A stretch of 64,000 nt of DNA, taken from NCBI RefSeq assembly GCF_000767615.3, contig NZ_CP009553.3:2666001-2730000 (forward strand), written 5' to 3'. The DNA is from Pandoraea pnomenusa (GTDB taxonomy: Bacteria > Pseudomonadota > Gammaproteobacteria > Burkholderiales > Burkholderiaceae). Each line of letters begins with the position of its first letter. Position 1 is the first letter of the stretch. The notes under the pieces are model-generated. The model worked only from the letters and a program-made list of their open reading frames with translations. It did not search any database and was not told where the DNA came from. Made by a program: the position numbers and the translations under genes. This document shows positions 14,903-32,605 of the stretch, in pieces.

Positions 14903-14911
14903 ACGCACCGT

Positions 14912-14931
14912 TTGTAGTCCAATGCCTACAA
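14912..14931. promoter_or_regulatory. TTGTAG-N8-CTACAA dyad between response regulator and FNR genes
   Basis: A perfect 6-bp inverted repeat with an 8-bp spacer lies 9 bp after the response-regulator stop and about 110 bp before the FNR start. It could be a binding site for the NarL-type regulator itself; no second copy was found in the window. Confidence 0.3.
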
Positions 14932-14957
14932 GCTGTCATCGCGGCTGACACGACGTC

Positions 14958-14979
14958 GCGCCACGCGCTTATTTTTTTT
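14958..14979 (+). terminator. possible weak intrinsic terminator after the response regulator
   Basis: A short GCGC-CAC-GCGC stem (14958-14968) is followed within 3 nt by eight T (14972-14979). The stem is short, so termination may be partial. Confidence 0.4.
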
Positions 14980-15044
14980 CTGCCTGCTCTCTCCAATACT
15001 TCAAGCGTGATGACTTGACTTGAGGCCGTTGCGACGGAGTTGCC

Positions 15045-15890: not shown

Positions 15891-15983
15891 CGGCGGAACG
15901 GGACGGGCCGCGTATGCGGCACGAGACATAAGCACACGTACGGTACGTACGAGACTTGGCGAGGCGCGGCCGCGCGAACCGGT

Positions 15984-16976
15984 ATGCGAGCGATGCAACT
16001 CTCCAGGACAGACCACACGTTGCGGCTGGTGGACATCCCGGTCCCCACGCCAAGTCCCACCCAGGTCCTCATCCGGGTGAGCGTGTGTGGCGTGTGCCGT
16101 ACCGATCTGCACGTCGTCGACGGCGACCTTCCCGACGTTCCCGACAAGATCATCCCGGGGCATGAGATCGTCGGCACGGTCACGGCGCTGGGGGATCGCG
16201 TGCAGGATTTTCGGATTGGCGACCGTGTCGGTGTCCCGTGGCTCGGGGCGACGTGCGGGTCCTGCCGGTTCTGCCTGAGCGGGCGCGAGAATCTGTGCGA
16301 CGACGCACGCTTCACCGGCTACACCCTTAACGGCGGCTATGCGGAGTACGCGGTAGCCGAGTCCCGGTTCACGTTCCGTCTGCCTGATCGCTACGATGAC
16401 GCCACCGCGGCGCCGCTGTTATGCGCCGGCCTGATCGGCTATCGCTCGCTTTCGATGACCGGCGATGCCCGCCGGCTCGGCATTTATGGATTCGGCGCGG
16501 CGGCGCACCTGATCGCGCAGATTGCCAGCGCGCAGTCCCGCGAGGTCTACGCCTTCACACGCCCCGGCGACGTACAGGGGCAGGCGTTTGCACTGGCCCA
16601 CGGCGCCGACTGGGCCGGGCCGAGCGATGCGCCGGCGCCGCGGTTGCTCGATGCCGCCATCCTCTTCGCCCCTGTCGGCGAACTGGTTCCCCAGGCGCTC
16701 GCTTCGATGGACAAGGCAGGCGTCGTCGTCTGCGCAGGCATCCACATGAGCGATATTCCGTCGTTTCCGTACCGTCTGATCTGGGGGGAACGTCAGGTTC
16801 GCTCGGTGGCGAATCTGACCCGAGACGACGGGCTCGAATTTCTCAAACTTGCCGACACGATCGGGCTGAAGGTGACAACGCGCGAATACCCGCTGGAGCG
16901 GGCCGGCGAGGCGCTCGACGATCTACGCCGAGGTGCATTCTCCGGCGCGGCGGTGTTGCGGGTCGGGGCGTCGTGA
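15984..16976 (+). CDS. zinc-dependent alcohol dehydrogenase (MDR family)
   Basis: A 330-residue medium-chain dehydrogenase. The catalytic zinc ligand Cys is in CGVCRTDLH, followed by GHEIVG, the four-Cys structural zinc lobe CGSCRFCLSGRENLC and a nucleotide fold with YGFGAAAH. Relatives oxidise alcohols or reduce aldehydes with NAD(P). An ATG at 15984 opens the frame; another at 15993 is as likely, since neither has a good ribosome-binding site. In the anoxic locus it may act as a fermentative electron sink (inference). Confidence 0.9.
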   Translation: MRAMQLSRTDHTLRLVDIPVPTPSPTQVLIRVSVCGVCRTDLHVVDGDLPDVPDKIIPGHEIVGTVTALGDRVQDFRIGDRVGVPWLGATCGSCRFCLSGRENLCDDARFTGYTLNGGYAEYAVAESRFTFRLPDRYDDATAAPLLCAGLIGYRSLSMTGDARRLGIYGFGAAAHLIAQIASAQSREVYAFTRPGDVQGQAFALAHGADWAGPSDAPAPRLLDAAILFAPVGELVPQALASMDKAGVVVCAGIHMSDIPSFPYRLIWGERQVRSVANLTRDDGLEFLKLADTIGLKVTTREYPLERAGEALDDLRRGAFSGAAVLRVGAS

Positions 16977-17032
16977 GACCGGGACAGGCACGTTCGTTTG
17001 TCTCTTCGGGCCTGGCAAAGCGGGGGATGCCC

Positions 17033-19003
17033 TCAAACCGGCGGGGCGCCGGGTGAGGGCGGCTTCTCCAGCGGAATCACGGAGGTAACGACGGTGCCGC
17101 CCTCGGAAGGACTGCGGACTTCGAGCGATCCGCCGAGCAGGCGAGCTCGCTCGCGCATGCTGATCAGTCCCAGCGCGTCGGGCTTGGGCCGGGTGGGAGG
17201 CAGGCCCCGGCCATTGTCGGAGATGCGCAGCCGGCATTCCCGATCGCAGGACAGTTCGATCGTGATGGACGTCGCTCGCGCGTGTTTTGCCACGTTGTTC
17301 ATCGCTTCCTGAACGATTCGGAACAACGCCGTCGCCACGGCAGGCGGAACGGGCGGCAGGCCCCGCGCGCCCGTGACATCGACGGCGACGCCGTAACGCC
17401 GCGCGAAATCCTGTGCGTACCACTCGATCGCCGGACCGAGCCCGAGATCGTCGAGCATCGGCGGGCGCAGCTCGGCGGCCATCTGTCGCACGGCGCTGAT
17501 CATCCCGTCGATCGCCAGCTCGATGCGTTTCACATCGGCGCTTGCCGGGGCATGGCCGTCGAGCGTGCGCTTGAGCATTGCGGCGTCCATTTTCAGCGCG
17601 GTGAGCCGCTGGCCAAGATCGTCGTGGAGTTCTCGCGCGATGCGCAGCTTTTCGTCCTCACGCACTTCAAGCAAGCGGGCGTTGAGCTTTTCCAGTTCGA
17701 TCCGGGAGTTCTGCAGGGCGTTCGCCATCTGGCGCTGTTCGGTCACGTCGCGCAGCACCACCGTGTAGAACTTCCCGGCCGCGTCGGCGCTCTGGGAAAT
17801 GGACGCCTCCATCGGAAACTCCTCGCCGTCGGAGCGCAGCCCCCACAGCGGCCTGCCGCGCCCCATGAGGCGCTCCGATACGCCGGTCGCCCCGAATCGC
17901 TCGATGTGCCTGAAGTGAGCATCGCGGAACCGCTCCGGGATGAAACGCCCCAGCGGCTCGCCAATGGCTTCCATGGCGCTGCACCGGAAAACGCTCTCGG
18001 CCGTCGGGTTGAAGATTTGGATGCGCTGCCATTCGTCGATGGTAATGATCGCCTCGCGCACCGACTGGATGACGCTGAACAGCCGGCCGTCGGAGCGCCG
18101 CTTGTCGAGTCCCTCACGCTCGGCCACCGCCCGGGCATGCCGTCGTGACATCAGCGCGACCGCCCAGGCGAACAGCGTGGCGGCACTCATGATGATGCCG
18201 AAAACGAGCGCCCAACTGGCCATGCCCGCGCCTCGCAATGCGGCAAATTCGCCGGATGCCGTGTAGGTGAGGTCCAGACCCGCCCTGTTGGCGTAAGGCA
18301 GGTGCGTCGTCGCGCGATAGGTGGCGGACGGCCGCGGCTCAGTCGGCGGGCGAGGGGCCAGACTGTCGAATACCGGCTGGGGCTGATCCGTCGCCCCGGC
18401 CGCGGCAATGGTCAGCGTCAGGTCGTGCAGGAGCGGGCCGATCGACGCGTGCACCAGCATGTCGATGTCGGCGATGGCGTAGGCGCATGACGGCGGCGCG
18501 CTGGCGTTGGCGAGGAAAACGAGATACGTGCGCCCGGTCGACGGCGACTGGCGCGAGAACATGCGCTCCCCCGCGCCGGCCCCACCCGACAGATCCAATG
18601 CCGGTATCGCGCCTCCCATGGGGGAATACGCGGCCACCCGACGGATGCGGTCGCCGCTGCGCTCGCACTCGCCCACGCTGACCAGGCCGGGCAGGCGCTC
18701 CGCGAGCCGCATACGCTGTGCGTACGTCGTCAATATCGTGTCGGTGGGCGCGGGCAAGTCCGCCAGATAATCCGATGCCCCATGGACCGCGTCGCGGTAG
18801 GCGCTCAACGCGCTCGCGAGCTTGTCGGTGGCGGTGCTGGTCCGTTGCGAGAAGCGTGCGTCGACATTGCTGTGCAATACGGAGCGCACCGTCAGCCAGT
18901 TAGCGGTCGCAACGCCTACGCAAAGCAGGCACACGGCAGCGAATAGCAGTCCGTCGGATTGTCGAATGGATCGAAGCATGCCAAGCAGCGTTTTGGCCAT
19001 CAT
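17033..19003 (-). CDS. membrane sensor histidine kinase with extracytoplasmic and PAS domains
   Basis: A 656-residue kinase: a first membrane helix (about 17-40), a periplasmic region of about 250 residues that looks CHASE-like, and a second helix (ALVFGIIMSAATLFAWAVAL). A PAS domain (VIQSVREAIITIDEWQRIQIF) follows, then a HisKA_3 phospho-acceptor RELHDDLGQRL and a HATPase with SDNGRGLP and GLISMRERA. HisKA_3 kinases pair with NarL-type regulators, so the partner is most likely the gene at 14258 even though the FNR and dehydrogenase genes lie between. Two adjacent ATGs (19003, 19000) start the frame. Confidence 0.9.
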   Translation of the reverse strand: MMAKTLLGMLRSIRQSDGLLFAAVCLLCVGVATANWLTVRSVLHSNVDARFSQRTSTATDKLASALSAYRDAVHGASDYLADLPAPTDTILTTYAQRMRLAERLPGLVSVGECERSGDRIRRVAAYSPMGGAIPALDLSGGAGAGERMFSRQSPSTGRTYLVFLANASAPPSCAYAIADIDMLVHASIGPLLHDLTLTIAAAGATDQPQPVFDSLAPRPPTEPRPSATYRATTHLPYANRAGLDLTYTASGEFAALRGAGMASWALVFGIIMSAATLFAWAVALMSRRHARAVAEREGLDKRRSDGRLFSVIQSVREAIITIDEWQRIQIFNPTAESVFRCSAMEAIGEPLGRFIPERFRDAHFRHIERFGATGVSERLMGRGRPLWGLRSDGEEFPMEASISQSADAAGKFYTVVLRDVTEQRQMANALQNSRIELEKLNARLLEVREDEKLRIARELHDDLGQRLTALKMDAAMLKRTLDGHAPASADVKRIELAIDGMISAVRQMAAELRPPMLDDLGLGPAIEWYAQDFARRYGVAVDVTGARGLPPVPPAVATALFRIVQEAMNNVAKHARATSITIELSCDRECRLRISDNGRGLPPTRPKPDALGLISMRERARLLGGSLEVRSPSEGGTVVTSVIPLEKPPSPGAPPV

Positions 19004-19016
19004 GTCGCCCGAATTC

Positions 19017-19048
19017 GATGCAACGGCATCGGATGGTGCCGTTGTATC
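19017..19048. promoter_or_regulatory. 12-bp inverted repeat at the kinase promoter
   Basis: GATGCAACGGCA (19017-19028) pairs with TGCCGTTGTATC (19037-19048) with one mismatch and an 8-bp spacer, 14 bp upstream of the kinase start. It could be an operator or an mRNA leader hairpin. Confidence 0.4.
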
Positions 19049-19173
19049 ACCGTTTGTCCGAATTTCCCATACGCGTCATTCCGCAAATCGTCCCGCCGGT
19101 GCAACAGCGGGCAATCCGTGGTCCATCCTCCGGGCAGTGGGCGCCGCTTCGACGCGACGCCTCGGGGGCGGCC

Positions 19174-19187
19174 TTGATCCGCGTCAA
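19174..19187 (+). promoter_or_regulatory. FNR/ANR box before a tandem universal stress protein
   Basis: TTGATCCGCGTCAA has one mismatch to consensus. Its centre is 29.5 bp before TAGGCT (19210-19215), the geometry of a class-II FNR promoter near -41.5, 33 bp before the ATG at 19248. Confidence 0.75.
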
Positions 19188-19247
19188 TCGACATGCGCCA
19201 ACGCCGTACTAGGCTGGAAACAGATCCTCTCGCCCTGGAGTGACGCC

Positions 19248-20090
19248 ATGACCTATCGGACCTTGCTGGTACACGTCGACAACAGCGCGCGCTGCCGCGC
19301 ACGCGTCGAACTCGCGGCGGACTTTGCCTTTCGGTTGCCCGCGCACCTCACGGGGATCTACCTGCCGTTCCATCCACCCGGATTTCCCGATGTCACGGGT
19401 CTGGCCGGGGCAGGCCTGCCGCCGCCGCCCGTTCCCCTGAGCGATCCCGAACGCCTTGCGAACGCCGAACGGATGTTCATGGACGTCTGTCGTCGTCAGG
19501 CGCTGAGTCCCGAGTGGCTCACCCCGAAATACGATGAGATCCGCGAGATGCGCACGCACGCGCGCTACGCGGACCTCGTGATCATGGGGCAGGAGGACGT
19601 CACCGATCCGGAATCCTCGCCGACTGTGGGCTTCGTCGCTTCGGTCGTGCTCGGTGGCGGCAGGCCTGTCCTGATCGTGCCTTACGCCGGCAAGCTCCCC
19701 AAGGCGTTCAACACCGTGCTGCTCGCCTGGGATGGCGGACGTGAAGCAGCTCGCGCGGCCGTCGACGCCATGCCGTTTCTGCGCGCGGCCAAGCGTGTCG
19801 ATGTCATGCATGTGAGCCGCGGCGATCGCGCCGACGGACTCGGTCCGATTCCCGGACTGGACATCGGCATGTTCTTCGCCCGTCATGGCGTTCAGGTCAA
19901 TGTCACACCGGAGCGCGGCGCCAACGACGTCGCCGTGGCCGAGGCACTGCTCTCGCGCGCCGCGGACATGAACACCGACTTGATCGTGATGGGGGGATAC
20001 GGTCACTCGCGCATGCAGGAATGGGTGCTGGGCGGCGTGACCCGCACCATGCTCGAGAGCATGACCGTGCCCGTTCTGATGTCGCATTGA
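19248..20090 (+). CDS. tandem-domain universal stress protein
   Basis: A 280-residue protein with two USP folds. The first (TLLVHVDNSARC...) lacks the ATP-loop glycine motif; the second (NTVLLAWDGGREAARA...) has GGYGHSRMQEWVLGGVTRTML. This suggests one working nucleotide site per chain. The ATG at 19248 follows CTGGAG. It is 24 bp before the zinc dehydrogenase gene, so both form one FNR-controlled operon. Its closest relative in the window is the USP at 27393-28220. Confidence 0.9.
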   Translation: MTYRTLLVHVDNSARCRARVELAADFAFRLPAHLTGIYLPFHPPGFPDVTGLAGAGLPPPPVPLSDPERLANAERMFMDVCRRQALSPEWLTPKYDEIREMRTHARYADLVIMGQEDVTDPESSPTVGFVASVVLGGGRPVLIVPYAGKLPKAFNTVLLAWDGGREAARAAVDAMPFLRAAKRVDVMHVSRGDRADGLGPIPGLDIGMFFARHGVQVNVTPERGANDVAVAEALLSRAADMNTDLIVMGGYGHSRMQEWVLGGVTRTMLESMTVPVLMSH

Positions 20091-20114
20091 ATCCGTCTTG
20101 CAAGGAGCCATGCC

Positions 20115-21152
20115 ATGAAAGCGCTCGTATTTCACGGTCCCCAACAGATATCGCTCGAAGATCGGCCCATGCCGGAAATCCAGGACCCGACCGACGCCAT
20201 CGTGCGCGTTCTGAAAACGACGATATGCGGCACCGACCTGCACATCCTGAAGGGCGACGTGCCGACGGTCGAGCCGGGCCGGATCCTGGGCCACGAAGGG
20301 GTCGGGGAGGTCGTGCAAACGGGCAACGCCGTCACAGCCTTCAAGCCCGGCGACCGGGTGTTGATCTCATGCATCTCGTCGTGCGGCAAGTGCGCGGCCT
20401 GCCGGCGCGGCATGTATTCGCATTGCGCCGCCGGAGGATGGATTCTCGGCAATCGCATCGACGGCACCCAGGCCGAATACGTCAGAACCCCGCACGCCGA
20501 CACCAGCCTTTACCACGCGCCGGACGGCGTGGACGACGACGCGCTGGTCATGCTGAGCGACATTCTGCCCACGGGCTTCGAATGTGGCGTGCTCAACGGC
20601 AAGGTGCAACCGGGCAGCAGCGTGGCCATCGTCGGGGCGGGACCGATCGGGCTCGCCGCGTTGCTCACGGCGCAGTTCTTCAGCCCGGCCCAGATCATCG
20701 TCGTCGATCCCGACCTCGCGCGGCTGGAGGTGGCCACCCGATTCGGCGCCACCTCCGTGATCTCGCCCACAAGGGAAGATGCGGCCGAGGCCGTCAGGCG
20801 TCTGACCGGCGGGCAGGGCGTCGACACGGCCATCGAGGCGGTGGGCGTACCCGCGACATTCGAACTTTGCGAGGCGATCGTCGCCGCCGGGGGCATCATC
20901 GCCAACGTGGGCGTGCACGGCCGCAAGGTCGACCTGCATCTCGAATCGCTGTGGGACAGGAACATCAGCATCACGACCCGTCTGGTCGATACCGCGGCAA
21001 CGCCGATGCTGCTCAAGACCGTGGCCTCGGGGCGTCTGACGCCGGGTGCACTGATCACTCACCACTTCTCGCTTGCCGATATCCTGAATGCCTACCGGAC
21101 GTTCGGCGATGCGGCCAATACACATGCGTTGAAGGTCATCATCGCGCCATAG
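20115..21152 (+). CDS. zinc-dependent alcohol dehydrogenase (MDR family)
   Basis: A 345-residue medium-chain dehydrogenase with catalytic zinc motifs TTICGTDLHILKG and GHEGVGEV, the structural zinc lobe CGKCAACRRGMYSHC, and an NAD(P) fold VGAGPIGLAAL with a following VVDPD acidic end that favours NAD. It resembles threonine/secondary-alcohol dehydrogenases. AAGGAG lies just upstream of the ATG. Paired with a stress protein under an FNR box, it probably re-oxidises NADH at low oxygen (inference). Confidence 0.9.
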   Translation: MKALVFHGPQQISLEDRPMPEIQDPTDAIVRVLKTTICGTDLHILKGDVPTVEPGRILGHEGVGEVVQTGNAVTAFKPGDRVLISCISSCGKCAACRRGMYSHCAAGGWILGNRIDGTQAEYVRTPHADTSLYHAPDGVDDDALVMLSDILPTGFECGVLNGKVQPGSSVAIVGAGPIGLAALLTAQFFSPAQIIVVDPDLARLEVATRFGATSVISPTREDAAEAVRRLTGGQGVDTAIEAVGVPATFELCEAIVAAGGIIANVGVHGRKVDLHLESLWDRNISITTRLVDTAATPMLLKTVASGRLTPGALITHHFSLADILNAYRTFGDAANTHALKVIIAP

Positions 21153-21234
21153 TGCCGTGCAGGGTCGGTCGGAGGCGCGCAGGAGCGCAGGGACGTTCCC
21201 CGACGCGCCGCCGGCGGTCGGGGCTCATTGCACC

Positions 21235-22143
21235 TCATGGCGTCTCAGGCAGGCTGTCGAGCAGGTCGCGAACGGCGTCGGCCAACAGCGGGGTCACATC
21301 GATCGCGTTCGTGGCGTGCGCGACCGAATTGCAGGTCACGACACGACCGGCGCCCGCGGCAATGAGTTCGTCGACGCTCACGCCGTCGAACAGACCGTGC
21401 ACCGCAACGCATACGGGACTTCCGAACCCCGCTTTCACTAGCGCGCCGACGGTAGCCAGCATGGTTTGGCCGCTGGCGAGAATGTCATCGACGATCACCG
21501 GGTTCCGGTGCGCGAACTTCGCCGGCACGTGCAGGCTCACGTCCACTTTCCTGTCCGCCTCGCGTGTCTTGCGGGCCACGACCGACGGGGCACCGATGCG
21601 GCTGGCGATCTGGGCGATCCAGGCCTCGCTTTCCTCGTCGGGGCCCACGATCAGCGGATCGGCTACGTTTTGCACGATCCAGCTGGCCGTGGCGGCAACA
21701 CTGTGCGGCGCACGCACCGGGATCGGGTAGACGACCGACAGCGAGGGGAGCCTGTGCAGGTGAGGCTCGATCGTCACCAATCCGTCGAACTGCGCGCCGA
21801 GCAATCGGCCGAAACTGTAGGCGGAGATCGATTCGCCCGCATGAAAGCGGGCGTCCTGTCGCAGATAGCACAGGTACGGCGCGACGAGAATGACGTGCCG
21901 CGCGCCGAGGTCTCGCGCCGTGTCCGCCGCGAAGATCAAGGGCAGCAGCTTCGCGTCCGGCCGGTTCAGCGAGCACACGATGACGATGGCTTTTCCGCTC
22001 AGCGGTCCCTCCATCGACACCATCTGTTCCCCGTCGGGGAAGCGATGGACCTCGAGCCGCTGCATGGGAGACTCGATCTGCGCGGCAAGCGAGCGGGCCA
22101 GCGTCTCGTTGCCGGGCAACGCGTAGAGCGCGACGTCTTTCAT
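21235..22143 (-). CDS. ribose-phosphate pyrophosphokinase-like protein (PRPP synthetase paralogue)
   Basis: A 302-residue protein of the PRPP synthetase family, with HRFPDGEQ (about 34-41), RQDARFHAGESIS at the ATP site and the PRPP loop VIVDDILASGQT. The housekeeping RQDR-R-R and DLHA motifs are replaced (TIEPHLHR), placing it in a divergent subgroup. The start codon overlaps the stop of the AMP-phosphorylase-like gene (ATGA, 22140-22143), so the two act together. Possible roles are making PRPP from R5P, or the reverse reaction, which would yield ATP; the direction is not shown. Confidence 0.85.
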   Translation of the reverse strand: MKDVALYALPGNETLARSLAAQIESPMQRLEVHRFPDGEQMVSMEGPLSGKAIVIVCSLNRPDAKLLPLIFAADTARDLGARHVILVAPYLCYLRQDARFHAGESISAYSFGRLLGAQFDGLVTIEPHLHRLPSLSVVYPIPVRAPHSVAATASWIVQNVADPLIVGPDEESEAWIAQIASRIGAPSVVARKTREADRKVDVSLHVPAKFAHRNPVIVDDILASGQTMLATVGALVKAGFGSPVCVAVHGLFDGVSVDELIAAGAGRVVTCNSVAHATNAIDVTPLLADAVRDLLDSLPETP

Positions 22144-23738
22144 GATTCCCTCACTGCGACAATGCCGGGGAAGCGGCAGGCGTATTCGAATGCGTATTCG
22201 AGCTCGCCACGGCTTTCGGCGTAAATGGTGAAGAGCGGCTGGCCGGTTGCGACCATGGCGCCGATCGGCGCCTCGTAGACGACCCCGGCGCGCGCGGCTG
22301 TCGGCGCGCCGGCGAGCTTTGCCAGGCGCGACAGATGCCGGTTGTCGACGGCGGTGACGGTACCGTTGTGTCGAGCGGTCACCGGCCGGCTGTGGCGTCC
22401 GACGACCGGCTCACGCATGCCGCCCTGCGCTTCGCAGATCCGCTGGAACTGCTGCCAGGCGAGCCCGCTGGTCAGCGTGCGACGGGCGCTGACCAGTCCG
22501 TCGCCGGGTAGGGCCTTGCCGCCGATTTCGAGCAATCGGCCGGAAATCTCGAGGCTCTTGTTCATCAAGTCGGACGGCGCACGGCTGAGGTTCTGAAGCA
22601 CCGCGAGCACGTCGCGTGCCTCGAGGCTCGGCCCGATGCCCCGGCCGACCGGTTGTTCGCCCTGACAGACGTAGGTGTCGATCTCGAGCCCCAGGGCGCG
22701 GCCGATTGCGCGCAGGCGCTCGGAAAAGAGCGCGCTCGCGTAACGCGTGCGGATTTTCGCGGTCTCGCCGACCGGAATGTCGATCAGGGCATGGGTCGCG
22801 CCGACAGCCAGCTTCTTCGACAGGATCGACGCCATCATCTGGGCCTCGCTGTCGAGATCGAGCGGGCGCTCCACCTGAATCAGAATGTCGTCGGCGGGAC
22901 TCAGGCCCGCGGCGCCCCCGAACACGATGCAGCCCCCCACCTTGTCGACGACCTGGCGCATCTCCTGCGCGCTGAGGTCGACTGGCGCGAGCGTCTCCAT
23001 CGTATCGGCCGTGCCGGCGGGCGAAGTGATGGCGCGAGACGATGTCTTGGGCATGACCAGTCCCTGCGAGGTCACGATCGCCACGACGATCGGGGTCGTC
23101 CGGTTGCCAGGCAGTCCGCCGATGCTGTGTTTGTCTATGACCGTATCGGCTTGCCATTGCAGCGTTTTTCCGGTGGCCACCATCGCGCGCGTGAGCGCGA
23201 TGATCTCGTCGTCGTCGAGCCGGTTGCCGGTGCAGGCGGTCAAAAACGCGGAAATGTGAATCGACGAGTAACGGCCCGCCGCAATATCGCCGATCACTTC
23301 GTCAAGTGCGGCGGGGGTGAACGCCTCGCCGAACATCCGGCCCCGGACGTGCCGAAACGATTCGACCGGTGGCATATGCCGCACCCGAACCCATTCGCCT
23401 TCGTCCACTTCCAATGCCAGCAGGGCCGCCTCGCTCAAACCGATTTCGTCGAGCTCCAGCCAGTCGCCGATGACCGTCTGAAGCGTGGCAACGACGGTCA
23501 CGTCGCGGAAATCCAGTTGCAGGCGGGTCTGGGCCGCAAATCCTTCGGAGCGACAGATCAGGCTGTCGCGACGAAGGTACGCCACCGCTTCGCGCAGCGT
23601 ATCGACCTGCATGCGTCTCGCACGCAGGCGGCGTCCGGTCAGCGGCGCGCCGTCTTTCGATGCCGCATCACGATCCTCGGCGGCAGCGCGATGCGCATGG
23701 ACCGCGACGTCGGGCGTTCGTTCAAAGTCGTCTGGCAC
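22140..23738 (-). CDS. AMP phosphorylase-like / putative thymidine phosphorylase 2
   Basis: A protein of about 532 residues of the nucleoside phosphorylase-II family in the long archaeal AMP-phosphorylase layout. It has an N-terminal extra domain, then the phosphate and base site (KHSIGGLPGNRT, KTSSRAITSPAGTADTMETL), the GPSLEARDVL region and a C-terminal barrel-sandwich domain. Archaeal relatives split NMPs with phosphate into base and ribose-1,5-bisphosphate. I placed the start at GTG 23738 (AAGGA 9 nt upstream); TTG 23756 is possible. It is coupled to the PRPP synthetase paralogue, and its promoter carries the only perfect FNR box in the window. Confidence 0.85.
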   Translation of the reverse strand: MPDDFERTPDVAVHAHRAAAEDRDAASKDGAPLTGRRLRARRMQVDTLREAVAYLRRDSLICRSEGFAAQTRLQLDFRDVTVVATLQTVIGDWLELDEIGLSEAALLALEVDEGEWVRVRHMPPVESFRHVRGRMFGEAFTPAALDEVIGDIAAGRYSSIHISAFLTACTGNRLDDDEIIALTRAMVATGKTLQWQADTVIDKHSIGGLPGNRTTPIVVAIVTSQGLVMPKTSSRAITSPAGTADTMETLAPVDLSAQEMRQVVDKVGGCIVFGGAAGLSPADDILIQVERPLDLDSEAQMMASILSKKLAVGATHALIDIPVGETAKIRTRYASALFSERLRAIGRALGLEIDTYVCQGEQPVGRGIGPSLEARDVLAVLQNLSRAPSDLMNKSLEISGRLLEIGGKALPGDGLVSARRTLTSGLAWQQFQRICEAQGGMREPVVGRHSRPVTARHNGTVTAVDNRHLSRLAKLAGAPTAARAGVVYEAPIGAMVATGQPLFTIYAESRGELEYAFEYACRFPGIVAVRES

Positions 23739-23865
23739 GGTGAGTGGTCCTTGCAAGTGACGGAGGAGGGCGCCCGGCAGGCATCCTTCGATACGATGCC
23801 CGACACGTGCCTGTCTGCAAGACTAGTTCCGATTCCGCGTGGGGCCCGCGTTGTTCGTTCCGGGC

Positions 23866-23879
23866 TTGATGCGTATCAA
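23866..23879 (-). promoter_or_regulatory. perfect FNR/ANR box upstream of the phosphorylase
   Basis: TTGATGCGTATCAA matches TTGAT-N4-ATCAA in full. On the minus strand its centre is 47.5 bp before TAGTCT (23825-23820), a class-I-like distance, pointing to the phosphorylase/PRPP operon. Confidence 0.8.
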
Positions 23880-23946
23880 GCCCCGCAGCGCGCGGCGAAA
23901 CATTCAGGGAGACAGTGCACGGCAATCCGGGACAACCTCGCGGACG

Positions 23947-23960
23947 TTGAGATATGTCAA
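23947..23960 (+). promoter_or_regulatory. FNR-like box driving a candidate small RNA
   Basis: TTGAGATATGTCAA has two mismatches to consensus. TAAGGT (23983-23988) follows with its first base 29.5 bp from the box centre. The flanking GCGCTAAGGTG is identical to the -10 region of the FNR-linked BON gene (28387-28397). Transcription would begin near 23995. Confidence 0.6.
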
Positions 23961-23994
23961 ACACGGCTATGCGCGGCGGCGCTAAGGTGGAGTC

Positions 23995-24124
23995 GTCGTC
24001 GGTGCGGGTTGGCCGATGCGTCGATTGCCCGATATTGCCGTGTGGTTGGCACTTGCGCCCGGATACGGCCCCGTTCAGGGCGCAAGCAAGTTGGGTCTGT
24101 GCCCGCTACGGCGGGCATTTTTTT
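23995..24124 (+). ncRNA. candidate FNR-controlled small RNA (about 130 nt)
   Basis: No gene occupies 23739-24291, yet this stretch has an FNR-like box with a matching -10, a perfect 9-bp stem CTTGCGCCC/GGGCGCAAG (24052-24060 with 24078-24086) and a strong intrinsic terminator ending in seven T (24118-24124). That is the build of a bacterial trans-acting sRNA: unpaired 5' part, stem-loop, short linker, terminator hairpin with U-tail. The terminator is about 167 bp before the phasin start, which has its own FNR-like promoter, so a simple leader of phasin is less likely. The 5' end is an estimate, and no name or target can be assigned. Confidence 0.6.
24100..24124 (+). terminator. Rho-independent terminator of the candidate sRNA
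   Basis: TGCCCGC (24100-24106), a 4-nt loop, GCGGGCA (24111-24117), then seven T at 24118-24124. This is the clearest intrinsic terminator in the window, and no open reading frame ends before it. Confidence 0.85.
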
Positions 24125-24152
24125 ACTTCGGACAGGCGCGCGAGACGCGACG

Positions 24153-24166
24153 TTGACATGGCGCAA
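24153..24166 (+). promoter_or_regulatory. FNR-like box before the phasin-like gene
   Basis: TTGACATGGCGCAA is a degenerate box, but its centre lies exactly 28.5 bp before TATGCT (24188-24193), the same -10 hexamer and spacing used elsewhere in the locus. Confidence 0.5.
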
Positions 24167-24291
24167 ACGGCCCGCACGGGGTGCCATTATGCTGAAACCT
24201 GCCGCACCACGATTGCGCTTCGCCCGCCAGAAGGCAGAAGGCGCCTCGCCTTCGTCCCGTGTGACCGGCACTTGTCATGGGAGTCGTGAAG

Positions 24292-24846
24292 ATGGCTACG
24301 GAACCGAATCCAATGCTAGGCCTGTGCAAGGCACAGATGCTTGCGCTGGTCGAAGCCCATCGGCACTGGGTTGAAGATCTGCTGTGCCTGCGACAGGTGC
24401 AGTTGCGCACCGACGAAGGCTTGCTAGAAGCCGACAGGACTTTCGGCGCGGAATTGGCGAGCGCCCCGGATTTCAACGCGGTTCTGAACAGCCAGCTCGC
24501 CTTCATCAACCGACAACTGGCGATGCAGCATCGCATTTGGCAGGGGTGGATGCAGATCGGCGCACGTGGCCCCGCGGTGTGGGCCGAACAGTACCAAGGT
24601 GCGCAAATGGCGTGGCAACATGTGTTCTCCGACTCGGCGGCCACCACGTCCTCCGCCTCGGCCGAGAGCGGTTGGCAGGCCTGGGGCGATGTCACCCGAT
24701 CGGCGATGGACGCCCTGAGCGCCATGTCGAGCGAGGCCAATCGGGCCGTAGCGCAGCAGTTGGCCTGGCTTCAGGGTTCCGCGGCAGCCGGCCGGGCGAA
24801 GGTGAAGCCGGCCAGGGCCGGGCGCGCGGCGAATAGCGAAGGATGA
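24292..24846 (+). CDS. phasin-like protein
   Basis: A 184-residue, largely alpha-helical and amphipathic protein with the length and pattern of polyhydroxyalkanoate granule-associated phasins (HRHWVEDLLCLRQ; a long helix near ALSAMSSEANRAVAQQLAWL; Ala/Lys-rich tail KVKPARAGRAAN). I chose the ATG at 24292 because GGGAG lies 9 nt upstream; an ATG at 24277 has none. Phasins coat PHA granules; a PHA store as electron sink or carbon reserve would fit anoxic persistence. No PHA synthase is in the window, so the assignment rests on pattern only. Confidence 0.65.
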   Translation: MATEPNPMLGLCKAQMLALVEAHRHWVEDLLCLRQVQLRTDEGLLEADRTFGAELASAPDFNAVLNSQLAFINRQLAMQHRIWQGWMQIGARGPAVWAEQYQGAQMAWQHVFSDSAATTSSASAESGWQAWGDVTRSAMDALSAMSSEANRAVAQQLAWLQGSAAAGRAKVKPARAGRAANSEG

Positions 24847-24910
24847 TGTCAATCATGCGTTCGAGCCCGCCGCGAGCGTCGGCCACGGCGGTCGGCATAA
24901 GGAGGTTTTC

Positions 24911-25948
24911 GTGAGCCACGTCCAAAACGATTTGCTGCGGGTATGGTCGGTCGACGAACACGGGTTTCCCGAACGGGCGGCGGCGCGGGACAAACTGCGG
25001 TTCTGCCTCCAATATGCGATCCTTGCGCCCTCCACGCACAATACCCAGCCCTGGCGTTTCGTATTGGGCGACGACACCGTGCTGGTATGCGCCGATCGCG
25101 CACGCGGATTGCCGGTGAGCGACACCTACGATCGCGAACTGATTATCAGTTGCGGCGCGGCCCTGTTCAATCTGCGAGTCGCGCTCAGCCATTTCGGCTG
25201 CCCGTATGTGATTCGGGTATTGCCGACATCCGCCGAGCCCGACGTACTTGCCAGCGTTCAACTGTCCGAAGACGGGTTCGTCGACAAGGACATTGCGCCG
25301 CTGTTCGGCGCGATTCCCGAGCGCGTCACGAATCGTCAGGTGTTCGACGACGGGCCGATATCGCCGGTCGTGTTCGATCGGTTACATGCCGCGGCGCAAG
25401 CCGAGGGTGCCCGGCTCGGCCTTGTCACCGCGCACGGCGAACGCCTGCATCTGGCCGAACTCATCGATCAGGCGGACCGGATTCAACTTGGCGATCCTCG
25501 CTTTCGCCGCGAACTGGCGTCCTGGATCAGCGCGTCGCGTCGGGACGACGGCATGGCCGGCTACTCGGCCAATGCCGGCCACTTGCTCGACTTCGCGGCG
25601 CCAATCGTGACTTCCGTCATTCGCACGTTCGACATCGGTGGGGGTATCGCAGCCAGCCATCACCGACTTGCCGAAGGCTCGCCGTTGCTCCTGTGCCTGT
25701 CGACCGCCGCGGATCACCAGGAAAGCTGGTTGAGTGCGGGGCAGGCGATGCAGCGCGTCCTGCTGACACTGACCGCCAGCGGCCTTTGCGCCTCGTTTCT
25801 CAACCAGCCGATCGAAGTGGACGATTTGCGTCGCACGATTGCCCAAGCGATGGGCACGATGGATTATCCTCAGCTACTGCTGCGCGCTGGGCGCGGCCCC
25901 GATGTGGCACATACGCCTCGCCGAACACTCGCCTCGGTCGTTTCCTGA
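24911..25948 (+). CDS. Acg-like nitroreductase-family protein
   Basis: A 345-residue protein of the Acg group, in which two nitroreductase-like halves are fused. It has APSTHNTQPWRF near residue 40 (the FMN-phosphate motif), GSPLLLCLSTAADHQESWLSAGQAMQ in the second half, and a closing PQLLLRAGRG segment. Acg of Mycobacterium tuberculosis belongs to the hypoxia-induced dormancy regulon and sequesters flavin rather than acting as a normal reductase. The start is GTG at 24911 with GGAGG 6 nt upstream. It follows the phasin-like gene closely, so both may share the FNR promoter. Confidence 0.85.
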   Translation: MSHVQNDLLRVWSVDEHGFPERAAARDKLRFCLQYAILAPSTHNTQPWRFVLGDDTVLVCADRARGLPVSDTYDRELIISCGAALFNLRVALSHFGCPYVIRVLPTSAEPDVLASVQLSEDGFVDKDIAPLFGAIPERVTNRQVFDDGPISPVVFDRLHAAAQAEGARLGLVTAHGERLHLAELIDQADRIQLGDPRFRRELASWISASRRDDGMAGYSANAGHLLDFAAPIVTSVIRTFDIGGGIAASHHRLAEGSPLLLCLSTAADHQESWLSAGQAMQRVLLTLTASGLCASFLNQPIEVDDLRRTIAQAMGTMDYPQLLLRAGRGPDVAHTPRRTLASVVS

Positions 25949-25975
25949 TCGCGGCGCCCGACGAGCCGTCGCACG

Positions 25976-27328
25976 ATGCCGCCCGACGTTCAACACTCAC
26001 ACCAAACGACACACGCGGACATGGGAATCGACCTGGGCGATCGACGGTCGCCGACCTTGCGCGAGGCTCTGCGCAAAAGACTCCGGGAGCATCCTCTCGC
26101 CCGGGTTGGGCCGGGACTGATTACCGGCGTGGCCGACGACGACCCCAGCGGCGTCGTAACCTATTCGCAGGCGGGCGCGCAGTATGGCTTCAACATGCTG
26201 TGGACGATGCCGCTGGCGCTCCCGTTCATGGCGGCCATCCAGCTGATCTGCGCCCGCATCGGCAGGGTCACCGGCAAAGGCCTCGCCGCCAACATCGGCA
26301 CCGCGTTTCCACCCGCCGTGCTGCGCATCGTCGTGGCACTGCTTCTCGTGGCGAACACCCTCAACATTGCTGCGGATCTGGCCGCCATGGGCGAGGTGGC
26401 GGAGCTCACCAGCGGCATCGACCGGCACTGGATGACGATCGGCTTCGCCCTCGGCACGCTGCTGCTCCAGGTATTCGTGCCGTATCACCGGTATGTGATC
26501 TTCCTCAAGTGGATGACCATGTCGCTGCTCGCGTACGCGGCTGTCCTGCTTACCGTGCACGTGCCATGGCACACCGTGGCACTGCGAACGGTATGGCCGG
26601 CGTTTCGCCTCGATTCCGCCAGCGCGGCCGTGATCGTCGGGGTCTTCGGTACCACGATCAGTCCCTATCTCTTCTTCTGGCAGACGTCGGAGGAGGTGGA
26701 GGAAATGGCGAGGCATCCGGACGCTCGCCCCTTGCGAGACGATGTCGCTGCCGCGCCCGACGAGCTGCGCCGCATCGGATGGGACACCTGGACCGGCATG
26801 TTCTACTCGAATATCACGGCGTTCTTCGTCATTCTGGCAACGGCGGTGACATTGCATGCGGGTGGGGTCACGAACATCGAGACGGCGGCACAGGCGGCCA
26901 GCGCGCTGCGCCCGCTGGCCGGCGACCTGGCGTACGCGCTTTTCAGTCTCGGCATCGTGAGTGTGGGGCTGATCGGCGTGCCGGTGCTCGCGGGCTCGGG
27001 CGCCTATGCGCTGGCCGAGACCCTGCACTGGGAAGAAGGGCTCGAGCGCAAGCTCACGAGTGCGCAGGGTTTCTACGCCATCATTGCCCTGAGCATCATG
27101 GCCGCCACCGCCATTCAGTACTCCCCCATCAGCCCCATGAAAGCGCTCTTCTGGAGTGCCGTGATCAACGGCGTGGTGGCCGTGCCCGTGATGGCGGTCG
27201 TACTGCTGCTGGCAGCTCGGCGTTCGGTGATGGGACCGTTCACGGCCCGCTGGCCGATCCTTGCGCTGGGCTGGATCGCTACCGCGGTGATGGGCGCGGC
27301 CGCCGTCGTGATGTTGGTCGCAAGTTGA
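25976..27328 (+). CDS. NRAMP-related divalent metal transporter with altered metal site
   Basis: A 450-residue membrane protein of about 11 helices in the NRAMP/MntH superfamily. The first helix reads DDDPSGVVTYSQ where MntH has DPGN, and helix 6 reads TTISPYLFFWQ where MntH has A-x-x-MPH. The metal-binding Met is thus Ser and the conserved His is Tyr. Related Nramp-like magnesium carriers also lack the Met, so the substrate may not be Mn or Fe. Start choice is uncertain: 25976 or 26021 (MGIDLGDR), neither with a strong ribosome-binding site. It ends 5 bp before a large hairpin shared with the facing USP gene. Confidence 0.82.
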   Translation: MPPDVQHSHQTTHADMGIDLGDRRSPTLREALRKRLREHPLARVGPGLITGVADDDPSGVVTYSQAGAQYGFNMLWTMPLALPFMAAIQLICARIGRVTGKGLAANIGTAFPPAVLRIVVALLLVANTLNIAADLAAMGEVAELTSGIDRHWMTIGFALGTLLLQVFVPYHRYVIFLKWMTMSLLAYAAVLLTVHVPWHTVALRTVWPAFRLDSASAAVIVGVFGTTISPYLFFWQTSEEVEEMARHPDARPLRDDVAAAPDELRRIGWDTWTGMFYSNITAFFVILATAVTLHAGGVTNIETAAQAASALRPLAGDLAYALFSLGIVSVGLIGVPVLAGSGAYALAETLHWEEGLERKLTSAQGFYAIIALSIMAATAIQYSPISPMKALFWSAVINGVVAVPVMAVVLLLAARRSVMGPFTARWPILALGWIATAVMGAAAVVMLVAS

Positions 27329-27332
27329 AGGT

Positions 27333-27367
27333 TGCGCCGCCGCCGCAAAGCGCGGCGGCGGCGCAAG
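27333..27367. terminator. 15-bp GC-rich inverted repeat between convergent genes
   Basis: TTGCGCCGCCGCCGC (27333-27347), a 5-bp loop, then the perfect complement (27353-27367). It lies between the NRAMP-like gene (plus, ending 27328) and the USP gene (minus, ending 27393). There is no T-run, so it would block read-through from both sides or protect 3' ends. Confidence 0.5.
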
Positions 27368-27392
27368 GACGAGAAGACCCGGGTGCCAAGTC

Positions 27393-28220
27393 TCAGTGGG
27401 ACAGCAACACGGGCGTGGACATGTGCTTGAGTACCGTGCGGGTGGCGCCGCCGAAGACGAGCTCGCGGGTTGGTCCGTGTCCGTATGCGCCCATGACAAG
27501 CAGGTCGGCCTCGTAGGCTTCGGAGACGGACAGGAGTTGCACACCGTCGCTGGCGTCCGTGTCCTCGCGGATGGATACGGGCTTCGCGCGCAGGCCGTGC
27601 GATTCCATGAGCCTCACGATGTCGGCCAGCGAGGGGTCGTCTCCACCGGGCGAGCGATTGATACCCACCACGAAGATATCCTGGGCCCGGCCCAGCATTT
27701 GCCAGGCATCCCCGATGGCGCGGCGCGCTTCGCGCGAGCCATTCCATGCCACCACGATGCGACGAATCTCCTGTGGCAACGTCACGTTGTGCGGCAGCCC
27801 CATCACCGGCACGCCGCATGAGACGATCACGTCGCCAAGGCCGTCGACACCCAGGGCGCCAACGCCTCCCGGAGCATCCGGCTGACCAACGATACACAGG
27901 TCGGTGGCCTTGGCCACGCTCGAGAGAATGGCGACGGCCGCCCCATAGGGACTGTGCCAGTCGCCCTCGATATCGCTTTCGGCGCACACTTGAGAAAACA
28001 GGTGTTCGGCAGCGTGCAATGCCGTGCGCGAGTGCGCCTCGGTCTGGAAGTGATCGCCCGACGCTTCGCGTTGGCCCGAGTGAACAGCTCCCGGACGGTG
28101 TGGCAGGTAGATGCCGCAGAGACTGGCGTCGTGCTGGCGCGCGAGCCGGGCGCTGAAGCGAACTCGCGCCGCGCCCGTCGCCGTGTCGTCCATATGAACA
28201 CAAATTCTCCGTAGGCTCAT
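27393..28220 (-). CDS. tandem-domain universal stress protein
   Basis: A 275-residue two-domain USP. The first domain (RICVHMDDTATGAARV) lacks the ATP loop; the second (RIVVAWNGSREARRA) has GAYGHGPTRELVFGGATRTVLKHM. The ATG at 28220 has GGGAG 6 nt upstream, so the upstream open frame to 28304 is not used. The promoter has TATAAA (28295-28290), 48.5 bp from the centre of an FNR box shared with the divergent BON gene. It is paralogous to the USP at 19248-20090. Confidence 0.9.
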   Translation of the reverse strand: MSLRRICVHMDDTATGAARVRFSARLARQHDASLCGIYLPHRPGAVHSGQREASGDHFQTEAHSRTALHAAEHLFSQVCAESDIEGDWHSPYGAAVAILSSVAKATDLCIVGQPDAPGGVGALGVDGLGDVIVSCGVPVMGLPHNVTLPQEIRRIVVAWNGSREARRAIGDAWQMLGRAQDIFVVGINRSPGGDDPSLADIVRLMESHGLRAKPVSIREDTDASDGVQLLSVSEAYEADLLVMGAYGHGPTRELVFGGATRTVLKHMSTPVLLSH

Positions 28221-28336
28221 TTCGATCTCCCGACATGGGACTTCGCGAACTCGACCGCGACCTCGCGGCGCACCGAAGCCATGGCTACATTTATAGCGCC
28301 GCACACCACTTCGGTGCGCTCGCGCGGGCCGAACGG

Positions 28337-28350
28337 TTGACGTGAATCAA
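28337..28350. promoter_or_regulatory. FNR/ANR box in a divergent promoter (USP / BON)
   Basis: TTGACGTGAATCAA has one mismatch. It is 48.5 bp from TATAAA on the minus strand and 47.5 bp from TAAGGT (28391-28396) on the plus strand, a symmetric class-I layout serving both genes. Confidence 0.78.
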
Positions 28351-28435
28351 GCGCCGGCAAGACAGGAGCGCGCGGCCAAAGGCGTCGCGCTAAGGTGAAG
28401 AGACCGAAGTAACTGCCCCGACACGGAGACACCTC

Positions 28436-29089
28436 ATGAAAACGGATACCCAGCTCCAGCGCGACGTCATGGACGAACTCGCGCGCGACACCAATATTCA
28501 TGCCACCGACATCGGTGTAGAGGTTCGCGACGGCATCGTCACGCTATCCGGCGACGTGGGGAGCTTTCTGGAGAAGTGCGAGGCCGAACGCGTGGCGAGC
28601 CGCGTGGCTGGCGCACGCGCCATCGTCGTTTCGCTGGAAGTCCAGCCGGCATCGCACGATCGCCATACGGATGCCGACATTGCGCGCGCGGCGCTGGCCA
28701 TCCTGAAGTGGCACGCCGGACTGCCGCCGGACGGCATGCAAGTGAAGGTGGAGAACGGCTGGGTCACCCTCGACGGCAATGTCGAGCTCTACACGCAACG
28801 CGTACAGGCCGAGAGCGCGGTGCGCGCGCTCCGGGGGGTGAAAGGCGTCATCAACGACATCAAGGTGCAAGGCAGCCCGCATCGCCGGGAGATCGTCGGG
28901 CACATCACCGCCGCGCTCACCCGTCAGGCACAGCGCGAAGCCCAGCATCTCGACATCTCCCTGCTCGGCAACGGTGAGGTGCTGCTCACGGGCACGGTGC
29001 ATTCGCTCGCCGAGAAGGAAGCGATTCGGGGCGCGGCCATGTCCACGCATGGGGTCAGCGCCGTGGTCGATCGACTGACGGTCGCCTGA
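28436..29089 (+). CDS. three-BON-domain stress protein
   Basis: A 217-residue protein made of three BON domains in tandem (about 4-70, 78-145, 149-216), each with a V-x-V-x-x-G-x-V-x-L-x-G core such as VEVRDGIVTLSGDV, VKVENGWVTLDGNV and ISLLGNGEVLLTGTV. Unlike OsmY it has no signal peptide, so it should be cytosolic. BON domains bind lipids or polysaccharides or aid stress survival; the exact role is unknown. It is driven by the FNR box at 28337-28350. Confidence 0.9.
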   Translation: MKTDTQLQRDVMDELARDTNIHATDIGVEVRDGIVTLSGDVGSFLEKCEAERVASRVAGARAIVVSLEVQPASHDRHTDADIARAALAILKWHAGLPPDGMQVKVENGWVTLDGNVELYTQRVQAESAVRALRGVKGVINDIKVQGSPHRREIVGHITAALTRQAQREAQHLDISLLGNGEVLLTGTVHSLAEKEAIRGAAMSTHGVSAVVDRLTVA

Positions 29090-29148
29090 CGGGCCTGGCG
29101 CGCCTGGCGCAAACCGCGCGCAATGCGCGTCGGTATCGGAGAGCAGCG

Positions 29149-29622
29149 ATGAACACAGACCTGGAAGCCGTTGTCCTGGACATTCTCGACAGTTGTCGGG
29201 AATTGTCGCTCGCCACGCTCATGCGCGACGGCAACACGCAATCGGACGTCGTGTGCTTCGTGCACCAGGGGCTCGACATCTATTTCGCCACCGCGCGCGA
29301 CAGCCGCAAGATCGCCAATATCGAACACGCCGCACAGGTCTCGTTCTGCATCTACAAACCGTACACAGGATGGCCCGACATCAAGGCGATCTCGAGCCAT
29401 GCGTTCGCGGAGATACTGCCGGACGAGTCACCCGAGCGCTCGCTTGCGATACGTCTGCTCGACACTCGCTTCCCGAACGCGTGGACGCGCATTCCCGAGC
29501 ACGGGTCAAGTCGCACGACCATCGTCAAGCTGGAATCATGGGCGCTCAAGGTGCTCGACTACAGCCGCGGCTTCGGTCACACGGATATGGTCCCGGTGGC
29601 GTCGAAACGCCGCTTCGATTAG
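29149..29622 (+). CDS. pyridoxamine 5'-phosphate oxidase-family flavoprotein
   Basis: A 157-residue split-barrel protein: SLATLMRDGNTQSDVVCF, then FATARDSRKIANIEHAAQVSF, the usual FMN-phosphate contact, and a C-terminal ALKVLDYSRGFGHTD. Likely a small flavin- or haem-binding oxidoreductase. It starts 59 bp after the BON gene and is followed by a USP, so a BON/flavoprotein/USP operon from the FNR box is likely. Confidence 0.83.
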   Translation: MNTDLEAVVLDILDSCRELSLATLMRDGNTQSDVVCFVHQGLDIYFATARDSRKIANIEHAAQVSFCIYKPYTGWPDIKAISSHAFAEILPDESPERSLAIRLLDTRFPNAWTRIPEHGSSRTTIVKLESWALKVLDYSRGFGHTDMVPVASKRRFD

Positions 29623-29673
29623 GCGCGGCGCGACTGGCCGCACGAACTGTTCAGGCGCAGGGGAGGAGTCATC

Positions 29674-30135
29674 ATGTATCGCAACATTCTGGCGGCGTTC
29701 GATGCCAGCGAACCCTCGCAGATCGCGCTCACGCACGCGGCGCGGCTGGCCAAGGCGCTGGGCGCCAGCCTCAGAGTCGCGTATGTAGAGGTTGACCCGG
29801 CCCTGTATTTCCCATTGATGGCTGCCGCGTTGCCCTCGATCGCCGATGTCCGCGACTCGGTCGGCGCGGAGACGCTGGCAGTAAGGGAAGCGGCGCTGGA
29901 CTTGCTTGCGCGAGAAGGGGTTGCAGCGGAATTCGCCACCCTGCCGCTGATCGACAGCCACACCCATATTGCCGACCGGTTGCTCTCGGAAGCGACCCGG
30001 ATGAAGGCGGATCTGGTCATCTCCGGGTCCCACGGCCGCAAGGGTCTGGCGCGCCTCACGCTGGGCAGCGAAGCGAATCGCCTGCTACAGCACGCCTCGT
30101 TGCCCGTGCTCATCGTGAAGTCGCACGCCGCCTGA
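29674..30135 (+). CDS. universal stress protein (UspA family)
   Basis: A 153-residue USP with NILAAFDASEPSQIAL at the start and an ATP loop GSHGRKGLARLTLGSEANRLL. GGAGG lies just before the ATG. It ends 36 bp from the convergent tandem USP and is probably the last gene of the FNR-controlled operon starting at 28436. Confidence 0.92.
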   Translation: MYRNILAAFDASEPSQIALTHAARLAKALGASLRVAYVEVDPALYFPLMAAALPSIADVRDSVGAETLAVREAALDLLAREGVAAEFATLPLIDSHTHIADRLLSEATRMKADLVISGSHGRKGLARLTLGSEANRLLQHASLPVLIVKSHAA

Positions 30136-30171
30136 CCCGAACGTCAAGGTCGCCCGGCGGGGCCGAACGCT

Positions 30172-31131
30172 TCATCCGGCGACATTGACCACCATGAGCG
30201 GGCGATCGATCTCGCGCGCCACGCGTTCGTTTTCATGCCCCCTGAACCACGAGAACATACCGCCACGGTCCTGAGCGCCGATGACCACGATGTCGGCCCC
30301 CCATTGCGCCGCTTCCCGTTTGATGGCGGCTGCCACGTCTTCGGTCATGCGAGTGTGGGATACGAGCCGCTCGACAGCCATGCCGGCGCCGTATTCGGTC
30401 ATGATGGCGACCGCACGATCCAGCACGTTTTCCGCCGACTTCACGTCCTGTGCCGGGGAGAGCACGAATTTCCTGAGTTCCGCCAGATCGACACCCCGGT
30501 CTTCGATGAACATCGCCATCAAATGAGCACGCGCCGGTGCGAGTTGCATGCCCACGCGCACGGCGTGCAACGACGCTTCGCTGCCGTCGACGGCAAAGAG
30601 GATACGCTGCGGCATGCGCAGCGTGGATGCCTCGGCAACGCTGGGCACGACCAGAATTGCCCGGTGCGTATGTTCCGCCAATGAGACGGAAACCTTCGAG
30701 GCCAGTAGCGAGAGGATGCCGGCAGACGGCTCCGCGCCAACGATGACCAGGTCGGCATTCCACTCCTCGGCCACGCGTGCGAGACCGGCCGAGATTTCGC
30801 CTTTCCCAAGCGCGGGCCCCAGCAACCGCAGTTGCACGGAGGCCCCGCTTCGCTGCAATGTCGTGCGTGCGTGCTCCAGCGCCTCGAGTTCGTCCCGTCT
30901 GAGTTCCTCGAAGGCCGCGCTGACATCCGCTTGCGTGCGCGAATGCGGCTTCAGATAAGCGGCCGGGTCTTCGAAGAAACCGAGGACGAGCACGTGCGAT
31001 TGCGGCGAACACAAGCGGCTTGCGTAGTCGACCGCCTTCATTGAGGCGCCGCCGGCGTCGACGGCCACGATCACGCGTTTGAACGGCCGGGGCGCGCCCT
31101 GCGGCGACGCGGGTTTCGATTCGGGGTGCAT
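30172..31131 (-). CDS. tandem-domain universal stress protein
   Basis: A 319-residue protein with two USP domains, KRVIVAVDAGGASMKAV and RILFAVDGSEASLHAV, where the middle and end loops (GAEPSAGILSLLASKVSVSL; GAQDRGGMFSWFRGHENERV) differ from the classical G-x2-G-x9-G(S/T) ATP site. ATP binding is therefore doubtful. Its promoter TATGCT (31186-31181) is 28.5 bp from an FNR-like box shared with the divergent MgtC-type gene. Confidence 0.88.
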   Translation of the reverse strand: MHPESKPASPQGAPRPFKRVIVAVDAGGASMKAVDYASRLCSPQSHVLVLGFFEDPAAYLKPHSRTQADVSAAFEELRRDELEALEHARTTLQRSGASVQLRLLGPALGKGEISAGLARVAEEWNADLVIVGAEPSAGILSLLASKVSVSLAEHTHRAILVVPSVAEASTLRMPQRILFAVDGSEASLHAVRVGMQLAPARAHLMAMFIEDRGVDLAELRKFVLSPAQDVKSAENVLDRAVAIMTEYGAGMAVERLVSHTRMTEDVAAAIKREAAQWGADIVVIGAQDRGGMFSWFRGHENERVAREIDRPLMVVNVAG

Positions 31132-31207
31132 GGTCGATTTCGCCGGGCAGGGCGATCCGTGTGAGGATGTGAACGATTAGAGCATAGATGTCTGGCTGGC
31201 CAAAGCA

Positions 31208-31221
31208 TTGCGCTCCGTCAA
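31208..31221. promoter_or_regulatory. FNR-like box in a divergent promoter (USP / MgtC-type)
   Basis: TTGCGCTCCGTCAA has three mismatches to consensus. Its centre is 28.5 bp from TATGCT on the minus strand and 46.5 bp from a second TATGCT (31261-31266) on the plus strand. Two identical -10 hexamers at the usual distances support it despite the weak match. Confidence 0.55.
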
Positions 31222-31320
31222 TATCCGGACACCAGCCAGCGGCGCATGCCTTGCGCGGCGTATGCTGGATGCGTTTCCGAACGCGGTTCGGGCAACTTTC
31301 GGTGATTTTCAGGGGACGCG

Positions 31321-32571: not shown

Positions 32572-32591
32572 ATGCGGCGCCGTCGCGTCTC

Positions 32592-32605
32592 TTGATCTCG
32601 GTCAA
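32592..32605 (+). promoter_or_regulatory. FNR/ANR box before the small heat-shock protein
   Basis: TTGATCTCGGTCAA has one mismatch. TAGATT (32627-32632) follows at 28.5 bp from the box centre, a class-II layout, with the ATG at 32697. Confidence 0.75.

Follow-up and report, generated by a model that had tools for sequence, protein, structure and literature searches.

We describe what looks like a so far undescribed regulatory RNA gene of ~130 letters, which Pandoraea probably switches on when oxygen runs low. It lies at positions 23995–24124 of the window, by which we mean the whole 64,000-nucleotide stretch of Pandoraea pnomenusa DNA analysed here, between a divergent phosphorylase gene and a phasin-like gene. 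In our preferred reading, which we regard as likely, this is a stand-alone, FNR-activated gene for a trans-acting small RNA (sRNA) that would use the loop of its P3 hairpin as a seed. As judged from sequence comparison, positions 23947–24124 are a conserved promoter–RNA–terminator unit. From the phosphorylase gene to the phasin gene, the order is a perfect FNR box, an FNR-like box, a −10 element, the RNA, its terminator, and a third box, and the individual features are as follows.

22140–23756, minus strand: thymidine/AMP-phosphorylase-like gene, the divergent neighbour (NF003338 and TIGR02645 above cut-off)
23866–23879, no strand assigned: perfect FNR box TTGATGCGTATCAA, 0 mismatches
23947–23960, plus strand: FNR-like box of the putative small-RNA promoter, TTGAGATATGTCAA, with 2 mismatches to TTGATNNNNATCAA
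23983–23988, plus strand: −10 element TAAGGT, 22 nt after the FNR-like box
23995–24124, plus strand: small RNA of ~130 nt, both ends predicted (alignment, pair counts, covariance model)
23998–24017, plus strand: 5′ hairpin of the consensus structure
24028–24095, plus strand: three-way junction, in which P1 (24028–24033/24090–24095) encloses P2 (24036–24040/24047–24051) and P3
24052–24086, plus strand: P3 hairpin with a 9-bp stem
24065–24074, plus strand: P3 loop ACGGCCCCGT, the proposed seed, with GCCC exposed at 24068–24071
24101–24124, plus strand: Rho-independent terminator with T7 (terminator scan, pair counts)
24153–24166, plus strand: third FNR-like box TTGACATGGCGCAA, 21 nt before TATGCT (24188–24193)
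24292–24846, plus strand: phasin-like gene, start codon unsettled (24277 is also possible)

The preliminary description of this region had pointed to an FNR-like box with a matched −10 element, and both are present. The position of TAAGGT places the transcription start near 23995, which puts the centre of the box at −41.5. The spacing of 22 nt between the box and TAnnnT is the same in all 11 syntenic genomes, and the box itself has a mean identity to the window of 0.957 across the 10 syntenic relatives. When the window was scanned for a box with at most two mismatches followed by N22 and TANNNT, two occurrences were found (19174 and 23947), versus a total of two over 30 whole-window shuffles. 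The perfect FNR box on the phosphorylase side, absent from the preliminary description, has a mean identity to the window of 0.80 in 10 relatives and probably serves the divergent phosphorylase gene. At the other end of the RNA, the terminator had been described as the best in the window, and a window-wide scan bore this out: only the hairpin at 24099–24118 and its tail combine eight pairs, six GC pairs, and an unbroken T7. The sites at 30624 and 51708 are equal in pairs and GC pairs and have broken T tails, and the site at 46379 has 10 pairs, also with a broken tail.

Between these ends, the RNA has a conserved fold. For the window RNA, the folding energy is −61.9 kcal/mol (z −2.61), and one of 200 shuffles was as good. 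The perfect 9-bp stem proposed earlier, CTTGCGCCC/GGGCGCAAG at 24052–24060/24078–24086, was recovered as part of the minimum-energy fold. The consensus structure of the 12 sequences consists of the 5′ hairpin, P1, P2, P3, a small inner helix, and the terminator, with 96.2% of cells paired, and RNAalifold, run independently, returned nearly the same structure with 33 pairs. When the structures were slid along the alignment as a control, 30–44% of cells were paired. The 5′ hairpin, with 91.7% of its cells paired in the consensus, is missing from the window RNA's own minimum-energy fold. Across the 10 syntenic relatives, identity to the window averages 0.807 over 24026–24124, 0.59 over the RNA's first 31 nt, and 0.24–0.45 in the flanks outside the boxes.

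Conservation in related genomes with compensating changes, which the preliminary description had named as a check on the stem, was found: three pairs of P3 are changed on both sides, including C-G to U-A in four sequences, as is one pair of the 5′ hairpin. P1 and the terminator are nearly invariant across the 12 sequences, so they hold too little change for a pairing test. Over the whole structure, 11 cells are changed on both sides versus a shuffle mean of 4.5, a value as high being reached in one of 500 shuffles, and the covariation score is 0.149 versus 0.117 in shuffles, with none of 500 reaching the observed value. Two further measures did not exceed the control, the observed number of pairs changed on both sides being reached in 59 of 500 shuffles and that of further pair types in 479 of 500. 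Because these two measures are not above the shuffles and the sequences are related, we regard the covariation as good rather than overwhelming.

That the changes track base pairing also bears on whether the region encodes a small protein, which we consider highly improbable. Several open frames do cross the region in the window, but the relatives differ in length by numbers not divisible by three, and no ATG-started frame is common to all 12 sequences, in agreement with the earlier view that the region holds no gene for a protein. Three of the genomes (G028, G004, and G022) have no such frame of at least eight codons, and the only start codon that all 12 share, a TTG, lies within helix P1 and opens a frame that enters the terminator.

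A further possibility is that the RNA is the 5′ leader of the phasin gene, an attenuator or riboswitch in which the junction would respond to some signal and thereby control formation of the terminator. The layout of the window is favourable to this: the phasin-like gene shares the strand of the RNA and begins 168 bases downstream of it, a phasin homologue lies 3′ of the RNA in the window and in nine of the 11 other carriers, and a three-way junction stands before the terminator, an arrangement typical of riboswitches. The assignment of the gene itself depends in part on a distant relative. The window protein matches Pfam Phasin_2 weakly (E 0.1, 13.3 bits; cut-off 24.9), a relative with 26% identity in G025 clears the same cut-off with 39.4 bits, and a scan of genome contigs with the phasin-like protein confirmed no relative. 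Apart from G017, a phasin homologue is found downstream of the RNA in all nine other syntenic genomes tested.

Two genomes nevertheless break the association, with no phasin homologue beside the RNA, so the RNA does not always stand upstream of a phasin gene. G017 keeps the RNA and its box and has no phasin homologue in the 14 kb examined; the protein encoded downstream of its RNA has no family match. In G022, the gene ahead of the RNA (L059:7660–7760, minus strand) on the same strand encodes acetate kinase (TIGR00016 above cut-off) and itself follows a phosphoketolase gene. The next gene there encodes a solute-binding protein and is convergent, so that the RNA has nothing to lead. No FNR box with at most two mismatches was found near this copy. 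The preliminary description had also given the phasin gene a promoter of its own after the terminator. This stands in part: the third box, which probably belongs to a phasin promoter, is followed by TATGCT in the window, and a similar separate box lies 3′ of the terminator in seven of the 10 syntenic genomes, but it is absent or different in the other three (G028, G019, and G004). Where present, such a box argues against a leader, and a non-systematic look revealed no alternative antiterminator pairing. We therefore disfavour a phasin leader and put its probability low. A regulatory sRNA, the shape assigned to the region at the outset, is supported by the conservation of promoter, structure, and terminator, by the persistence of the RNA without a phasin gene in G017 and G022, and by surroundings rich in FNR boxes.

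The RNA appears to be confined to part of the genus. BLASTN with the intergenic region gave matches in 10 of 31 other Pandoraea genomes and in none of 29 other genomes; all of the matches fall inside 23943–24166, and six of the 10 start within the RNA. Of 32 Pandoraea genomes, 12 gave a match to a covariance model, namely the 11 of its training set and, as a new one, G017; by the BLASTN and covariance-model searches the remaining 20 lack it. The RNA is carried by all 11 genomes with a phosphorylase of at least 74% identity; G022, the one remaining carrier, gave no match to the phosphorylase at E 1e-30. A search of 398 genomes of the family (the 32 Pandoraea and 366 others), in which ten candidates per genome were scored and which has limited sensitivity, matched only G113 outside the genus. 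This match was driven by the terminator and rests on the common GCCCGC-TTCG-GCGGGC type, and we rejected G113 as a carrier. A pattern scan of species genomes returned 10 loci, nine in Pandoraea and one in Actinomadura, the latter of which we regard as due to chance. The plasmid records searched held no match, and no Rfam family matched the window at its gathering threshold, the weak matches having E values up to 5.

If the RNA is a stand-alone regulator, its most conspicuous part is the P3 loop. All 12 sequences have the same loop, ACGGCCCCGU, although the underlying stem varies, and the GCCC of the loop is unpaired in all but G017. The loop is likely the seed for target mRNAs. Target searches, covering loop complements, livF and livG, and the starts of window genes, yielded nothing firm. 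The genome, a single contig of 5.39 Mb, has 24 exact complements of the 10-base loop, counting the one at the RNA itself, which is fewer than the 45 of the reversed control. A perfect 10-base complement in the early codons of livF (L085) is intact in every carrier (12 of 12) and, among the 16 non-carriers compared, in 12. Of the 11 genomes in which the motif located a site in the adjacent livG, the window is the only one to have it intact. Against the starts of 61 window genes, picked by a composition rule, the best pairing of the loop was −21.5 kcal/mol, which 87 of 100 shuffled loops equalled or bettered.

The lack of a target in these searches would also suit an RNA that is real but binds a protein or sponges another RNA, instead of pairing with mRNAs through its loop, and a protein ligand would be in keeping with the length, structure, and invariant loop of the RNA. 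We nonetheless hold this to be unlikely, if a little less so than a phasin leader: no known protein-binding RNA family reached its gathering score, the best being rsmX with 21 bits versus 56. A CsrA sponge was considered separately; the GGA in P3 of the window is not conserved, being GTA in four relatives, and such a sponge is therefore unlikely.

Three deeper Pandoraea genomes (G023, G029, and G025; phosphorylase identity 53–54%) have a different RNA beside the phasin gene, located as follows.

L056:10099–10198, minus strand: second RNA (FNR box, exposed GCCCC loop)
L057:1280–1383, plus strand: second RNA (FNR box, exposed GCCCC loop)
L058:7469–7575, minus strand: second RNA (FNR box, exposed GCCCC loop)

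In all three, an FNR-like box stands ahead of this second RNA with the 22-nt spacing seen in the window, and the RNA has a long hairpin, the exposed loop, and a similar terminator, with folding z values of −3.06, −3.87, and −2.42. In G025, its neighbours are a BON gene on one side and a convergent phasin gene on the other. Covariation among the three close sequences amounts to one pair changed on both sides, a number that 160 of 500 shuffles reach. The window-RNA model scores these RNAs at 24.6–30.8 bits, no better than the unrelated G113 (32.9 bits); as such scores do not separate homology from a shared terminator, we do not claim homology between the two RNAs. A model of the second RNA matched in 51 genomes, 35 of them outside Pandoraea. 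The seven matches inspected outside the genus rest on a terminator of the GCCCGC-TTCG-GCGGGC type and were rejected. In the places inspected, which besides these seven comprised three further Pandoraea places and G113, no box with at most two mismatches occurs at the position that it has in G029 (−39), and a two-mismatch match lies at −85 in G240. It is conceivable, although we think it doubtful, that the window RNA and the second RNA form one fast-evolving family of low-oxygen regulators that has kept little besides the FNR promoter geometry, the phasin neighbour, and an exposed GCCCC loop selecting shared CGGGGC-like mRNA sites. If so, the copy in G022 would be a member made out of a fermentation mRNA's 3′ end, and two routes would lead to the same regulator.

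For the window RNA read as a stand-alone sRNA gene, we infer from the letters of the genome its transcription, low-oxygen induction, FNR dependence, target pairing, and a role for Hfq. When oxygen falls, an FNR-type regulator would bind 23947–23960 and switch on transcription in the manner of a class II promoter, to which a box centred at −41.5 corresponds. The resulting RNA of ~130 nt, running from about 23995 to 24124 and ended by its own terminator, would fold into the 5′ hairpin and a three-way junction presenting P3. The exposed GCCC of the loop would then likely pair with target mRNAs and probably alter their translation or stability, helped by Hfq at the U-rich end.

To our knowledge, FNR-controlled sRNAs are known from few lineages. 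FnrS of Escherichia coli is an FNR-activated trans-acting sRNA and should be represented in Rfam; the window RNA differs in that FnrS did not match it in the Rfam search. AniS of Neisseria meningitidis, described in the available text as an FNR-controlled, Hfq-linked sRNA made in oxygen limitation (Fantappie 2011; PMC4423775), resembles the window RNA as a betaproteobacterial sRNA, a likeness drawn from descriptions and from a predicted FNR control on our side. NcS25, NcS27, NcS35, and BrrF of Burkholderia cenocepacia are sRNAs of the same bacterial family, and the accessible portions of the sources on them, including PMC10117139, mention no FNR link. According to the same portions, NcS25 is an 84-nt RNA by a porin gene, reported in Pandoraea too (PMC10117139), and this location is not the locus of the window RNA. 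The window RNA is not described in the available parts of PMC10117139, PMC10987360, PMC5688073, PMC4603805, and PMC4423775, and the literature searched, outside whose scope most subscription papers fell, contained neither a description of it nor any FNR-controlled sRNA for Pandoraea.

The window as a whole is rich in FNR boxes: 26 with at most two mismatches were counted versus 10.3 expected, a number reached in none of 100 shuffles, and five with zero or one mismatch (12980, 19174, 23866, 28337, and 32592) lie within 20 kb (12980–32605). The following regulatory genes accompany them.

14084–14899: LuxR-type response regulator
15045–15887, plus strand: FNR-type regulator, the candidate activator (NF008365 189.1 bits, below the NCBI Fnr cut-off of 228)
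17033–19003: PAS histidine kinase

The FNR-type regulator has an N-terminal cysteine cluster. At least four genes for universal stress proteins also lie in the stretch, together with genes for an Acg-family oxidoreductase and for BON and Nramp proteins. On the basis of the box enrichment and the FNR-type regulator gene, we consider the stretch a low-oxygen island. Some Pandoraea infect cystic fibrosis lungs, where oxygen is low, and a defined RNA with an invariant loop in an island rich in FNR boxes would offer a directly testable handle on how these aerobes survive the loss of oxygen. The island resembles the lxa locus of B. cenocepacia, for which the portion of the literature available reports a gene island with universal stress proteins raised by low oxygen. 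It differs in the window RNA, which was found in none of the 366 non-Pandoraea genomes of the family bar the one terminator-driven match, at the limited sensitivity of that search. The cysteine cluster of the FNR-type regulator recurs in the product of another gene, near genome position 3075756. A gene for a beta-CASP/RMMBL metallo-hydrolase, of an RNase-like family (11471–12937, minus strand), adjoins the FNR box at 12980.
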